This document shows, piece by piece, positions 9,914 to 15,566 of a stretch of 28,430 nt of DNA; the first letter of the stretch is position 1, and each line of letters starts with the position of its first letter. The stretch is from a virus, in the IMG/VR virus record IMGVR_UViG_3300032224_000934, positions 1-28,430 of that record, one strand, 5' to 3'. Both the position numbers and the translations under genes were made by a program. The notes beneath the pieces were generated by a model, which saw nothing but the letters and a program-made list of their open reading frames with translations, was not told the DNA's origin and searched no databases.

Positions 9914-10356
9914 TGTCTTGGTCATATCAGGGTACTATCGTTGAAGAACTACCTGAGGACTGTGTTGGATTTGTTTATCTTATCACCAACACAGTAACCG
10001 GGCGCATGTATGTTGGCAAAAAACTTGCAAAGTTCAGCAAGACAACATATAAAGTCGTTAAACAAAAAAACGGAATCAAGAAGAAAAAAAGAATCAAGAG
10101 CAAAATTGATTCTAACTGGCAAACATATTATGGCTCCAACATTGAATTAAACAAAGATGTTGAAGCATTAGGCAACGAAAAATTCACACGCGAAATATTA
10201 CATTATTGCAACTCCAAGGCCCTTACATCATACTTAGAAGCAAAAGAACAGTTTGATCGCAAAGTATTAGAATCACAAGCATATTACAACGGGCACATCC
10301 AAGTTAGAGTCCACGGCTCTCATATCATTAAATCTCAGGCAACTAAAACAGTATAA
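9913..10356 (+). CDS. GIY-YIG superfamily nuclease
   Basis: 147 aa. The N-terminal domain begins GFVYLITNTVTGRMYVGKK (residues about 18-36), with the GIY half represented by F-V-Y-L and the YIG half by Y-V-G, followed by a Lys-rich insertion (about 45-72) and WQTYYGS. The conserved Arg downstream is less clear. EAKEQFDRKV near 115 supplies a candidate metal-binding Glu. GIY-YIG nucleases cut DNA and include homing enzymes (T4 SegA-type, I-TevI), T4 endonuclease II and repair enzymes. This form lacks an obvious separate DNA-binding domain. It is co-translated with the H1-like gene (TAATG) and is the last gene of the operon, immediately before a heavily structured non-coding stretch. Host DNA breakdown, phage DNA processing and homing are all possible. 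Confidence 0.75.
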   Translation: MSWSYQGTIVEELPEDCVGFVYLITNTVTGRMYVGKKLAKFSKTTYKVVKQKNGIKKKKRIKSKIDSNWQTYYGSNIELNKDVEALGNEKFTREILHYCNSKALTSYLEAKEQFDRKVLESQAYYNGHIQVRVHGSHIIKSQATKTV

Positions 10357-10800
10357 GCTAGCACAGGCTAATGTCGTGTGCCCTAAACCCGGATCTCGGA
10401 TCGCGGGGATGGAACTCTCTGCGCTGTACAGAGTACTCAACTACCATCCTTAACAGGACGTCGATCGCAAATGCCGCGGTTTAGTTGTTTGAAAAGAGTG
10501 AAAAAGAGCTAAATGAGGGGACAGTGAAGCCCCGGATTAATGTGTATGTTAGCGTATATTACATTAATTACCGTCATAACAAGACGTAGCTAGGGGTACC
10601 GGATGACCGCCTCAGTAATGCTACAACGCTAAGTGACTTGCGTACTCAGATAATGCCAAGTTTTTTCTTAACCCGTTTCTGGGTTAAGTGTGACCATTAT
10701 ATCTAGATAATATTAATACTGCTTCGCAGTATATTATGTGTTTTACATATCTAAATAGCTTCAAGCGATAGCGCAGAAGCAAGTGAGCGTTAGCTCACAT
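10357..10800 (+). ncRNA. Candidate structured non-coding RNA (about 440 nt, many inverted repeats)
   Basis: No gene in either strand. The stretch is dense with pairings. Listed 5' arm / 3' arm: 10361-10365/10377-10381; a long-range CTAAACC/GGTTTAG closing 10383-10389/10478-10484 around GCGG/CCGC (10403-10406/10474-10477), GGATGG/CCATCC (10407-10412/10444-10449) and ACTCT/AGAGT (10414-10418/10430-10434); GGGG/CCCC 10517-10520/10530-10533; a long stem 10533-10543/10561-10573 with a 2-nt bulge; GTAGC/GCTAC 10586-10590/10620-10624 enclosing AGGGGT/ACC-g-CCT; ACGC-t-AAG/CTTGCGT 10626-10643; CTTAACCC/GGGTTAAG 10667-10674/10681-10688; TACTGC/GCAGTA 10717-10722/10726-10731 extended by ATAATA/TATTAT; GCTTC..GCG/CGC..GAAGC 10758-10780; GTGAGC/GCTCAC 10783-10798. 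I recognise no known RNA class (not tRNA, tmRNA, RNase P or an evident group I intron). Strand is inferred from the flanking genes. It may be one RNA or several. Confidence 0.5.
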
Positions 10801-11943: not shown

Positions 11944-11969
11944 AAAAGCCTGCTTATGCAGGCTTTTTT
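11944..11969. terminator. Bidirectional Rho-independent terminator
   Basis: Stem AGCCTGC (11947-11953), loop TTAT, stem GCAGGCT (11958-11964), followed on the plus strand by T residues to 11969 and preceded by AAAA, which serves as the U-run for minus-strand transcripts. It separates the convergent genes ending at 11926 (plus) and 11975 (minus). Confidence 0.88.
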
Positions 11970-11974
11970 GTTGA

Positions 11975-12193
11975 TTAAAAGAACGGAAGTCTAGTTTCTT
12001 TTGTTGTTTCTAAGTTTTCTTTTACTAAGTCGCCCATTAATTCTCTTTGAGTTTTATCTGAATTGTACATTTCATCTAGAGATACGCTACCTCGCATGTA
12101 CCAACACAACTTAATTAATTCTTTTTCTCGGGCTCTTGTTTCTGCTTCCATCTCGTCAACTAGCTTAAGAATCTCAGCCATGGAGAGACTCAA
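11975..12193 (-). CDS. 51: gp51-like tail assembly chaperone, probably expressed as a -1 frameshift extension of the gp26-like protein
   Basis: 72 aa when read from TTG at 12193; a possible ATG lies at 12181. The sequence is helical and charged (AEILKLVDEMEAETRAREKE) and ends NLETTKETRLPFF, a tail I recall from the short gp51 homologues of cyanophage-like T4 relatives. T4 gp51 is described as a catalyst of baseplate hub assembly and is about 250 aa, so this is a minimal form. No ribosome binding site is well placed: AAGG is 3 nt from the TTG and about 14 nt from the ATG. Instead, the frame is open upstream across a UUUUUUC slippery heptamer in the end of the gp26-like gene. A frameshift product would be about 363 aa. 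This layout mirrors the G/GT tail chaperones encoded next to tape measure genes. Confidence 0.7.
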   Translation of the reverse strand: MSLSMAEILKLVDEMEAETRAREKELIKLCWYMRGSVSLDEMYNSDKTQRELMGDLVKENLETTKETRLPFF

Positions 12194-12198
12194 GAGCC
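12131..12198 (-). other. Putative frameshift-stimulating stem downstream of the slippery site
   Basis: In the minus-strand mRNA, GGCUCUUG (12198 to 12191) is perfectly complementary to CAAGAGCC (12138 to 12131), an 8-bp stem with a 52-nt intervening loop that can fold further. It starts 6 nt after the UUUUUUC heptamer, within the usual 5-9 nt spacer. Confidence 0.45.
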
Positions 12199-13065
12199 TT
12201 ATACGAAAAAACTTGAGTAATCAAATACGATAGGAAGTTCTACAAACTTAGGATTTTCTGGATCCTTGCTTAGATTAATATTCATAGGCTTAACTCCGTT
12301 AGCTTTTTTCATTTCATCTAAACGAGTTTTAACAATGTCAAATATTTCTCTATCGCTGTTTTCCATAAATTCTGCGATAAACTCTTTATCTTCAGTTGAA
12401 CCTGCATCAGAATCGATCCTGTATACACAATATCCAATTAGGTTAACTGTAATTTCTGTTAATTTTTTAAAACTTTCTTTAAAAAACTCTAAACGTTGTT
12501 CGTCTGTTATTTTTTCATCTTGCACAATACTCATAATTCGTTGGCTTTCAAAATCAGCAAGGCCGTTCTTGTTGGCTGTTGCATAATCGAGAGGTCTAAC
12601 GTATAGAACTAAATTTGGTCTTACTTCAATTCTTTCATCCCAAGAAATAGTTTCTTGCAGTTGATCTAGAATAGTTCGAAGGTCAATTTCAAATTCTCCA
12701 CTACCGTCTTCAAGATCTTCATGTGTGACTTGTAACGGCATCATATGTCCGTAGGTAGCAATCCGAAGTGCGATTAAGATAACATCAATATCAATGTTAG
12801 GGCAGTCCCATGCGTTGATTATATTAGGCATACAGCTTTCAATTACATCAATAACTGCCTGACCGTTAACTAGTGCATCGGGTGTTTTTAACATCAGCTC
12901 GTCTTTGGCAGTCATGGAAAACACAGGATACTCTCCGTTGACACTTACGTTTAAACTGCCTTCTGGCCAGTATTTTCCGCCGCTAGGCAACTTGATGTAA
13001 ATTTTAGGTTGACGCATGTGCGCCAACAGCGGGTTAACTCGCTTGGTTGTGCTTGTAGTATCCAT
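12199..13065 (-). CDS. 26: gp26-like tail/baseplate assembly chaperone
   Basis: 288 aa. The N-terminal region IKLPSGGKYWPEGSLNVSVN, followed by EYPVFSMTAKDELMLKTPDA and LVNGQAVIDVIESCMPNI, is the pattern I recall for gp26 (annotated baseplate hub subunit) in T4-like cyanophages. A helical middle and C-terminus follow, ending FDYSSFFV. T4 gp26 is about 208 aa. More recent thinking treats gp26/gp51 as chaperones rather than structural parts, which agrees with this location: divergent from, and 71 nt away from, the tape measure candidate. The last codons contain a -1 slippery heptamer leading into the gp51-like frame. A CATAAATA box lies about 40 nt upstream, and GGAG is close to the start. Confidence 0.72.
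   Translation of the reverse strand: MDTTSTTKRVNPLLAHMRQPKIYIKLPSGGKYWPEGSLNVSVNGEYPVFSMTAKDELMLKTPDALVNGQAVIDVIESCMPNIINAWDCPNIDIDVILIALRIATYGHMMPLQVTHEDLEDGSGEFEIDLRTILDQLQETISWDERIEVRPNLVLYVRPLDYATANKNGLADFESQRIMSIVQDEKITDEQRLEFFKESFKKLTEITVNLIGYCVYRIDSDAGSTEDKEFIAEFMENSDREIFDIVKTRLDEMKKANGVKPMNINLSKDPENPKFVELPIVFDYSSFFV
12205..12211 (-). other. Programmed -1 frameshift slippery heptamer U UUU UUC
   Basis: On the minus strand, zero-frame codons AGT TTT TTC GTA TAA place T TTT TTC exactly in X XXY YYZ phase, two codons before the gp26-like stop. The -1 frame has a stop (TGA) just upstream and is then open through the gp51-like frame. Confidence 0.6.
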
Positions 13066-13136: not shown

Positions 13137-15566
13137 ATGGCGGCAGTAACCGGAACCTTAGGTGGACAGCCCATTGTATTAGACAATGCGGCTACTGATG
13201 ATACTCTTAAACAGATTCTTGCGGCTCTAAGAGGTCAAGGAAGACCAGCGGGCGGTGCCGCGGGCGGTGGTGCAGGAGCGGCAGGCCCTAAAAACTTTGG
13301 TGCCTTGGGTAAAGATGCTGAAGGTGCTAGTACTGCAATGAAGGCGCTTAATAAAGTTGCTGGTAAAGCAGGCGATCAATTTTCAAGTCTAGCTACATCA
13401 AAGATGCCATTGTATGCAAAAGCATTAATGGCAACTATAGAAACTGTAGGTGTACTCGCAGGTGCATTTACCAAGTTAACTAAACAGGCCTACAGCGGTG
13501 ATGTTGCAGTTAGCGACTTCTTCGGGGCACTCGAAGGTGTTCCAATTATTGGTAAAGTATTTGGATTATTTGCCGACCTAGCAAAAATACAAGAAGAAAA
13601 TATGCGGGCCTTTAGGACTATGGCCAAATCGGGCGTAGGGTTTGAAGGAGCGTTAACTACAATCCGCACATCGGCGCTGGCCTTAGGTATGACTGTTGAC
13701 CAGTTTGCCGCGACTATGAAAAACAACACTGATGTATTCCGTATACTAGGTGGCGATGTTGAAACAGGTGCTAAACAGTTTGTAAAATTTGGCGCGGCAT
13801 TGCGTGATAGCCAAGCAGGCGCTAATCTAAGAGCATTAGGCATGACTGCTGAAGATAGCGCAAACACTATGGCTAACTTTATTCGTAACAACGGCGGCCT
13901 AACTGATCGTCAAAAGAAAGATTACGCAGGTGTTGCAGAATCCGTAGCTAATTATGCAAAACAAACAGACAGACTTGCAAAGCTAACTGGAACTAGTGCT
14001 GAAGAAATTGAAAAGAAAATGGCCAAGGAAGCTCAAGACGAAGCGTGGCAAGCAACACTTCAAGGCATGGATGAGAAAGATCGTGAATCTGCAAACGAAG
14101 CTCTTAAAGTTGCAATGGCAACAGGTGGACAAGGTGCAGTTGATGCATTAAAAGCTAAAATGATGGGCTTGCCTCCAATGACTGAAGCAGGTCAAAAGTT
14201 TGTAACAATGAGCGGCAATGCGGCCAAGCGCATGGACGAAATGCAAAAAGTTCTTGGTAGTAATATGACTAAAGAACAGAAACGTCAAAAGTTAGAAGAA
14301 CTTGGCGCTATGATGCAGTTAGATCGTGCAAAAGATGCAGAAGCTATAGGTATACAAACCCTGCAGGCAATGGCCGCACAAGGTGATCAAAATGCGATTG
14401 CTATGTTAAAAGCTAGCAATGACATGAAAAAAGCAGGTGTTACAACCTACGAAGGCGCAGTAGCAAACTTAAAGAAAGCAACTGATTCCCAAAATGCACA
14501 GTTAAAAAGCCAAGCAAGTGCAATGGCTGAAGCTGAAAAAGGATTAAAAGATTTAGGTAAAGTAATGGATGCGTTTATTGCTCCGTTGCTAAACGTGCTG
14601 ACTCCTTTGATGACTAATATCATAACATCATTTACTAACTTTGTATCTGGTCCTGGAATGACCGCATTGTTAAATTTTGGTGTTAAAATGGAAGGTATGA
14701 TTAAAGCAGTCGCCGAATATGTTGGATTTATTTTTAGCAAAGAGGGCGCAATGAAAATTATTAACTCAATGGGGGCATTCTTTTCAGGATTGTGGATTGA
14801 TATCAAACGAGGTATTGCGGCAAGTTTTGGTGAAACAATTGGAAATGCAATTTACAGTGAAGCCGATGCTAAGAAAGACAAAGACGCATTAAAAGAAAGA
14901 CAAAAAATAGAAGACGATAGGCTTACTGCTGTCGGAGTATTACGCAGACGTGAAGAAGAATTTGAAATGGCTAAGTTAGCAATGAACGATAAAGCCATGC
15001 AAGCACAGCGAGCAAGTATCGACAAAAAACAAGCCGAAATGAAAGAATTAAATGCTGTTGATAATAAAAATATGACAGCATTACAACAGATGCAACTTCA
15101 GCAAAAGAAAGACGTCTTGGCAAAAGAAATAGATGCAGACAAGGCAAATCTAGCAAAAGCAGAAGAGATGAGAAAGAGCGGAGCGGCCGCCAAGTTAGAT
15201 GCAGAACGTAAAGGACTTGAAGCCAAGGCTGGCGAAAATAGCAAAGGTGAAAGAGTAGCACCCGATAGTGCTGAAGTTAAAAAACATTTCAATGCAGGAA
15301 CAGCAGGGTCCGGTGAAGTGGTTCAGAACTTTGGTAATTCCACTAATGTAAAACTACACGGTGAAGAAGCTGTACTAAACAAAGAGCAATTAAAGAACTT
15401 GGTAACTAATGCCAAGGGCGGAGGCGGCGGCCAAGAAGCGTTGCTAGGCGCCTTACAAACGTTAAATATGAATACAGAGAAACTAATTGCACTTAGTGCC
15501 GAGCAAGTAAGGCAACAAACCGCATTAGTAAACAAGATACAGTGGACTGGCAACTTGTTTGAATAA
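13137..15566 (+). CDS. Tail tape measure protein candidate
   Basis: 809 aa, mostly helical. Residues 30-50 are Gly/Ala-rich. Hydrophobic segments occur near 92-110 (YAKALMATIETVGVLAGAF), 130-150 (VPIIGKVFGLFADL) and 480-505 (PLLNVLTPLMTNIITSF). The rest is charged helix, including a Lys/Glu/Gln-rich coiled coil at 580-690. Near the C-terminus, residues about 720-755 (GEVVQNFGNSTNVKLHGEEA, then VLNKEQLKNLV) resemble the conserved end of many phage tape measure proteins. Tape measures set tail length at about 0.15 nm per residue, so 809 aa would predict roughly 120 nm, reasonable for a myovirus. T4 gp29 is 590 aa, and I see no direct similarity to it. The chaperone pair lies divergently upstream and the portal gene 11 nt downstream. 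Confidence 0.68.
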   Translation: MAAVTGTLGGQPIVLDNAATDDTLKQILAALRGQGRPAGGAAGGGAGAAGPKNFGALGKDAEGASTAMKALNKVAGKAGDQFSSLATSKMPLYAKALMATIETVGVLAGAFTKLTKQAYSGDVAVSDFFGALEGVPIIGKVFGLFADLAKIQEENMRAFRTMAKSGVGFEGALTTIRTSALALGMTVDQFAATMKNNTDVFRILGGDVETGAKQFVKFGAALRDSQAGANLRALGMTAEDSANTMANFIRNNGGLTDRQKKDYAGVAESVANYAKQTDRLAKLTGTSAEEIEKKMAKEAQDEAWQATLQGMDEKDRESANEALKVAMATGGQGAVDALKAKMMGLPPMTEAGQKFVTMSGNAAKRMDEMQKVLGSNMTKEQKRQKLEELGAMMQLDRAKDAEAIGIQTLQAMAAQGDQNAIAMLKASNDMKKAGVTTYEGAVANLKKATDSQNAQLKSQASAMAEAEKGLKDLGKVMDAFIAPLLNVLTPLMTNIITSFTNFVSGPGMTALLNFGVKMEGMIKAVAEYVGFIFSKEGAMKIINSMGAFFSGLWIDIKRGIAASFGETIGNAIYSEADAKKDKDALKERQKIEDDRLTAVGVLRRREEEFEMAKLAMNDKAMQAQRASIDKKQAEMKELNAVDNKNMTALQQMQLQQKKDVLAKEIDADKANLAKAEEMRKSGAAAKLDAERKGLEAKAGENSKGERVAPDSAEVKKHFNAGTAGSGEVVQNFGNSTNVKLHGEEAVLNKEQLKNLVTNAKGGGGGQEALLGALQTLNMNTEKLIALSAEQVRQQTALVNKIQWTGNLFE

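Follow-up and report, generated by a model that had tools for sequence, protein, structure and literature searches.

The -1 frameshifts of phage lambda G/GT and of related tail assembly chaperones were reportedly described by Levin in 1993 and by Xu, Hendrix and Duda in 2004. For T4-like phages, the tail assembly chaperones are said to have been identified in 2022 by Vladimirov, Gautam and Davidson (Virology 566:9-15), under a title which makes a case for a non-frameshifting mechanism. That 2022 study is cited in PMC10885494 for T4-like phages possessing a short gene along with a fused long gene, and lambda G/GT-type frameshift work is cited as well in PMC12859696. For T4 itself, PMC3004832 counts both gp26 and gp51 among the hub assembly chaperones, with gp51 needed for assembly but not retained in the final particle. 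Vladimirov 2022 is also what PMC12846349 cites for poly-T slippery signals in the TAC-N genes of T4-like phages. Given these chaperones and these signals, the kind of system that is considered here thus is already known, and a frameshift for the gp26/gp51 pair, of which the original prediction knew no description, is not a new idea.

The TAC locus of Pseudomonas phage Adele, along with those of Vandenendeviridae and Andersonviridae, also resembles what is described below in that a conserved -1 frame, predicted from alignment only, opens at poly-T near the end of TAC-N. That locus differs in belonging to another phage group and in having GTTTTT as its motif, with no covarying stem described in the relevant part of PMC12846349. 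The literature search yielded no paper describing the present junction in either cyanophages or jumbo phages, nor any description of the covarying stem or copy-number pattern, which the full text of Vladimirov 2022 may contain.

The locus lies within a 28,430-nucleotide stretch of viral DNA, the whole of which was analysed and is here called the window. Its features are as follows.

12199-13065, minus strand: gp26-like ORF in the zero frame, the predicted TAC-N, 288 aa (PF12322, phrog_150, hhalign to T4-type gp26).
12205-12211, minus strand: in-phase slippery heptamer, T TTT TTC (sequence and relatives).
12199-12201, minus strand: zero-frame stop, TAA (sequence).
11975-12204, minus strand: -1 frame extension, the predicted TAC-C domain, 76 residues plus stop, counterpart of the T4 gp51 C-terminus.
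12191-12198, minus strand: 5' arm of the stem, GGCUCUUG (folding and covariation).
12131-12138, minus strand: 3' arm of the stem, CAAGAGCC, beyond a 52-nt loop (folding and covariation).
12179-12181, minus strand: ATG, the only one nearby for the second ORF and the start codon in a rival explanation (sequence).
11944-11967, read on both strands: terminator-like inverted repeat that directly follows the second ORF.
13137-15566, plus strand: divergent neighbour of 809 aa, a tape measure candidate by position, with the same placement in RaK2, 121Q and PA5oct.

The gp26-like ORF ends as TCA AGT TTT TTC GTA TAA. A heptamer of the form X XXY YYZ thus is found at 12211-12205, with XXY and YYZ as zero-frame codons, 10 nt before the zero-frame stop and within the overlap of both frames. 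From there the -1 frame, reading FFRIRLLSLSMAEILK...RLPFF*, is open to 11975, so that both the in-phase heptamer near the end of the gp26-like ORF and the stop-free entry into the gp51-like frame are as had been claimed. As TTTTTTC occurs 11 times in the whole window, counting both strands, the heptamer alone nevertheless says little; it is instead position, phase, and conservation which matter. A sigma-70 scan found a number of sites that was not above chance.

What very probably is present is one gene which gives rise to TAC-N and also, by programmed -1 frameshifting, to TAC-NC of a tail assembly chaperone. Most ribosomes would read the gp26-like frame to its stop, yielding the 288-aa TAC-N, with a minority shifting by -1 at T TTT TTC so as to add 76 residues, resulting in a 363-aa TAC-NC (287 + 76) with predicted junction ...SSFF/RIRLL.... 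The ratio of TAC-N to TAC-NC would be set by the heptamer and, in the window's clade, also by the stem. By analogy with lambda G/GT, both forms would handle the tape measure protein during tail tube assembly, and both would be absent from the finished virion. Supporting such frameshifting are conservation among divergent relatives, constraint beyond Phe-Phe, missing start codons, and a covarying stem.

In the alignment of relatives, as had been proposed for checking the heptamer, 127 of 133 distinct junctions have a slippery heptamer that is in phase, these being not independent events, as many of the cyanophage sequences are closely related and the downstream regions form 36 groups at 72% identity. 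The 133 consist of 125 distinct junctions, seven added phages, and T4. Among the 125, the heptamer is in-phase poly-T in 118 and in-phase A AAT TTT in four, with none in Aeromonas 31, Acj9, and Cygsa01. Among the seven added phages it is found in phiW-14, pf16, S-PM2, Ps15, and Aeromonas avDM12-TAAL and is missing from Vibrio K452 and Salmonella SS9, as it is from T4. Heptamer bearers include RaK2/121Q/PA5oct-type jumbo phages, cyanophages, and rhizobial, Delftia, and Pseudomonas phages. The heptamer is in phase in 10 of 10 IMG/VR relatives from the first scan, as well as in 11 of 13 sampled cultured jumbo phages, mostly at less than 30% protein identity; among those sampled, XacN1 and CM1 have T TTT TTT. 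The IMG/VR relatives were gathered by single-protein scans, and one of six peptide patterns in one relative scan contained FF, a mild bias toward FF but not toward its codons. Conservation of the heptamer at this junction is far beyond chance.

Relatives which keep both ORFs without the heptamer, named in the original prediction as evidence against it, do exist, i.e., Cygsa01, Vibrio K452, and Salmonella SS9 (L029, L197, L198). All three have one PF12322 gene along with a -1 frame C-terminal ORF, and have either a T TTY single-codon site or a TAATG overlap instead of a heptamer. In these phages, candidate substitutes would be single-codon slippage at T TTY or else reinitiation.

Reinitiation at the stop, or else initiation at the ATG at 12181, would allow the second ORF to be its own small protein, made without slippage. 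This is the alternative that survives best, albeit as an improbable one. That ATG is present in the window, an ATGA overlap with the stop is seen in four relatives (L002, L009, L014, L017), TAATG is seen in Cygsa01 and K452, and several records annotate the second ORF as a gene of its own. The start site nonetheless is a poor one, as originally claimed, the sole Shine-Dalgarno candidate for the ATG at 12181-12179 being an AAGG that lies far off, about 16 nt upstream, and the start given to this ORF by the ORF lister is instead a TTG, at 12193. Among 120 relatives, moreover, 30 lack an ATG and 22 lack any ATG, GTG, or TTG in reach. The residues from heptamer to ATG are, in addition, kept in the -1 frame, as FFR[IM][RK][LI]L. 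A separate small protein also leaves unexplained the invariant in-phase heptamer and the nearby codon bias. In favour of programmed frameshifting, substitutions in the -1 frame favour third codon positions, and the frame stays open among relatives in which the zero-frame stop varies in position, its distance from the start of the heptamer ranging between 10 and 43 nt.

A further reading, and a very unlikely one, is that the heptamer is kept only for Phe-Phe, with low G+C favouring TTT TTC. FF indeed is conserved at the junction in the zero-frame protein, and T4 gp26 has FF at the same place, but T4 codes it as TTC TTT. Various residues precede FF (S, N, H, R, Y, D, A, T), yet at the junction their codon always ends in T, whereas other FF pairs in the same ORFs, serving as control, have T TTT TTY in only 3 of 149 cases and most commonly are TTC TTT after G. 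A Phe-Phe constraint alone thus is insufficient, i.e., the heptamer and both frames are conserved past protein constraint. Furthermore, where a T-to-C change has broken the T run (L178, L187, L190, L191), an overlapping and in-phase A AAT TTT persists. Least credible, indeed scarcely so at all, is that one continuous gene has been split by sequencing or assembly error or as a pseudogene, for while homopolymer runs are where such errors arise, the same break is found at the same run in more than 120 distinct sequences, including complete cultured-phage genomes, from many laboratories; sequencing error and codon bias were both rejected as causes on the relatives' junctions and the FF control pairs.

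As to what the frames encode, the gp26-like ORF matches PF12322 (1.7e-9, 38.2 bits versus a cut-off of 24.5) and phrog_150 (7.5e-13), and its N domain is in this way that of a T4-like tail assembly chaperone. Alignment by hhalign to single T4 sequences was too weak and small alignments were used instead, with the window's zero frame then matching T4-type gp26 at 4.5e-8. By profile comparison, the window's N domain matches cyanophage gp26 (4.6e-16), which matches in turn both T4-type gp26 (3.2e-21) and the N part of gp51 (1.3e-8). The window's extension matches the cyanophage extension (6.3e-5, hhalign), and the latter matches the C-terminus of T4-type gp51 (3.2e-7, hhalign). Directly against gp51, the window's extension matches weakly (0.003, hhalign), and this is the weakest step in the homology, with the link running through cyanophages. 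The window's extension has no match among PHROGs; those of cyanophages match phrog_634. Along its length T4 gp51 matches phrog_150, with a phrog_634 match at the C-terminus, that is, it is an in-frame N+C protein consisting of PF12322 plus the C-terminal domain which is common to the extensions. Naming these ORFs for gp26 and gp51 therefore finds support in profile comparison, except that the only part of T4 gp51 to which the gp51-like ORF corresponds is its C-terminal domain. The window's locus and T4 gp26/gp51 are of the same family (PF12322, phrog_150, phrog_634), but T4 uses two genes, without a heptamer, for the short and long forms, whereas the window's locus is one, heptamer-bearing gene.

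A confident AlphaFold2 model of the N domain (mean pLDDT of 89.4) has as its best-scoring fold matches T4-like baseplate hub assembly proteins. A search with this model found no PDB match with E <= 0.001, and kinship with lambda-type chaperones thus is not supported by fold. Uncharacterised jumbo-phage proteins of about 500 aa, such as those of RP12, RSF1, and Special G, likewise resemble the model (TM-score of about 0.43-0.52 by query) and possibly are unrecognised tail assembly chaperones.

Similarity to lambda G/GT consists of a short chaperone and a longer -1 product, encoded beside a tape measure gene. Differences are the slippery sequence, T TTT TTC, a gene that is divergent from its tape measure candidate, and membership in the PF12322 family, with no solved-structure match and no placement in the G/GT protein family. 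By analogy, the window's chaperone may nonetheless work like lambda G/GT. The tape measure candidate, the 809-aa ORF at 13137-15566, lies between the gp26-like gene and portal, as in RaK2, 121Q, and PA5oct; it has no Pfam match, and its RaK2 counterpart is noted as similar to tail tape measure protein. The adjacency likened to that of lambda G/GT is therefore found, as the candidate does adjoin, but not the arrangement, lambda's genes being co-directional. In the PA5oct record, mass-spectrometry notes are attached to the portal and tape measure neighbour but not to the gp26-like protein, which fits with, yet does not prove, a chaperone that is absent from the virion.

Elsewhere in the window, at 10356-10490 on the plus strand, is a full-length match to the Rfam Polynucleobacter-1 RNA, RF01718 (111 bits; gathering score 37), adjoining a SegE-like GIY-YIG gene. 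Five contigs among the closest relatives (those behind L002, L003, L004, L007, L008) have this RNA as well, and it was not found in L009, L010, L011, or six cultured phage records that were searched.

The claimed stem of 8 bp, beginning 6 nt past the heptamer, is confirmed: 12198-12191 pairs with 12138-12131, i.e., GGCUCUUG with CAAGAGCC, its distance lying within the 5-9 nt after a heptamer that was taken as the position for a stimulatory structure. Folding of the 96-nt region gives -27.6 kcal/mol (z = -2.0). A stem is found at the same place in the window's clade along with Atu_ph07, Phosso, L009, and L175, with compensatory changes of G-C to A-U, C-G to U-A, and G-C to U-A, such that 89% of cells in the stem alignment are paired. 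Covariation is 0.431 versus 0.197 in shuffles, none of 500 of which reach 0.431, and slid versions do worse; L169 has a similar stem that is one base out of register. The stem probably raises the rate of slipping in the window's clade. Across the 36 lineages, 47% have a stem which starts 2-8 nt downstream at p < 0.05, and some have no downstream stem at all. Alignment of relatives thus bears out the stem in the window's clade but not in all other lineages, the heptamer being general and this stimulator not.

In seven relatives (L010, L117, L119, L123, L128, L156, L164), the first 40 nt after the heptamer are unusually unstructured, and several of these have in common a CTCTCG...TCTGA-like motif. 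Such lineages, if they frameshift, may use another stimulator. That stimulation might in general come from an internal Shine-Dalgarno ahead of the heptamer was also considered and rejected, for although GGAGGG reaches -10.5 kcal/mol in a cyanophage (L026), the corresponding value in the window is a weak -3.2.

As to copy number, exactly one PF12322 gene is found in 18 of 18 heptamer-bearing phage records that have a Pfam match, a set from which SCTP-2 is excluded as its PF12322 gene was missed by the Pfam search, its heptamer notwithstanding. Two PF12322 genes without a heptamer are found in T4, Aeromonas 31, and Acj9. Differing from these is Aeromonas phage avDM12-TAAL (L201, 231 kb, filed under Straboviridae), which keeps T TTT TTC and has PF12322 in one gene only. 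Read most simply, most of the group would have one frameshifted gene, which in T4-type phages, in a direction of change that we infer, was split into gp26 and a fused gp51. With about even chances, one frameshifted gene was that of the T4-superfamily ancestor, kept by cyanophages and jumbo phages as well as by at least one Straboviridae-filed phage of 231 kb, with T4 gp26/gp51 arising from duplication plus in-frame fusion of the second copy, and with a covarying long-range stem, of roughly 50-nt loop, helping the slip in the window's clade.

In current annotation the -1 extension is left out in PA5oct (L012:3831-4055) and RaK2 (L015:3828-4046), while in Atu_ph07 (L014:3816-4049) a short ORF with a later start is annotated in its place. 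The locus thus points to a long chaperone form that is missing from RaK2/121Q/PA5oct-type jumbo phages as annotated, their C-terminal part being either unrecorded, as in RaK2 and PA5oct, or entered as a hypothetical protein of its own. What is revealed is not a new system but instead a refinement of the annotation and evolution of a known one, with the covarying stem as a concrete element, and it offers a reason for the presence of two chaperone genes in T4 as against one in most of the T4-like relatives sampled.
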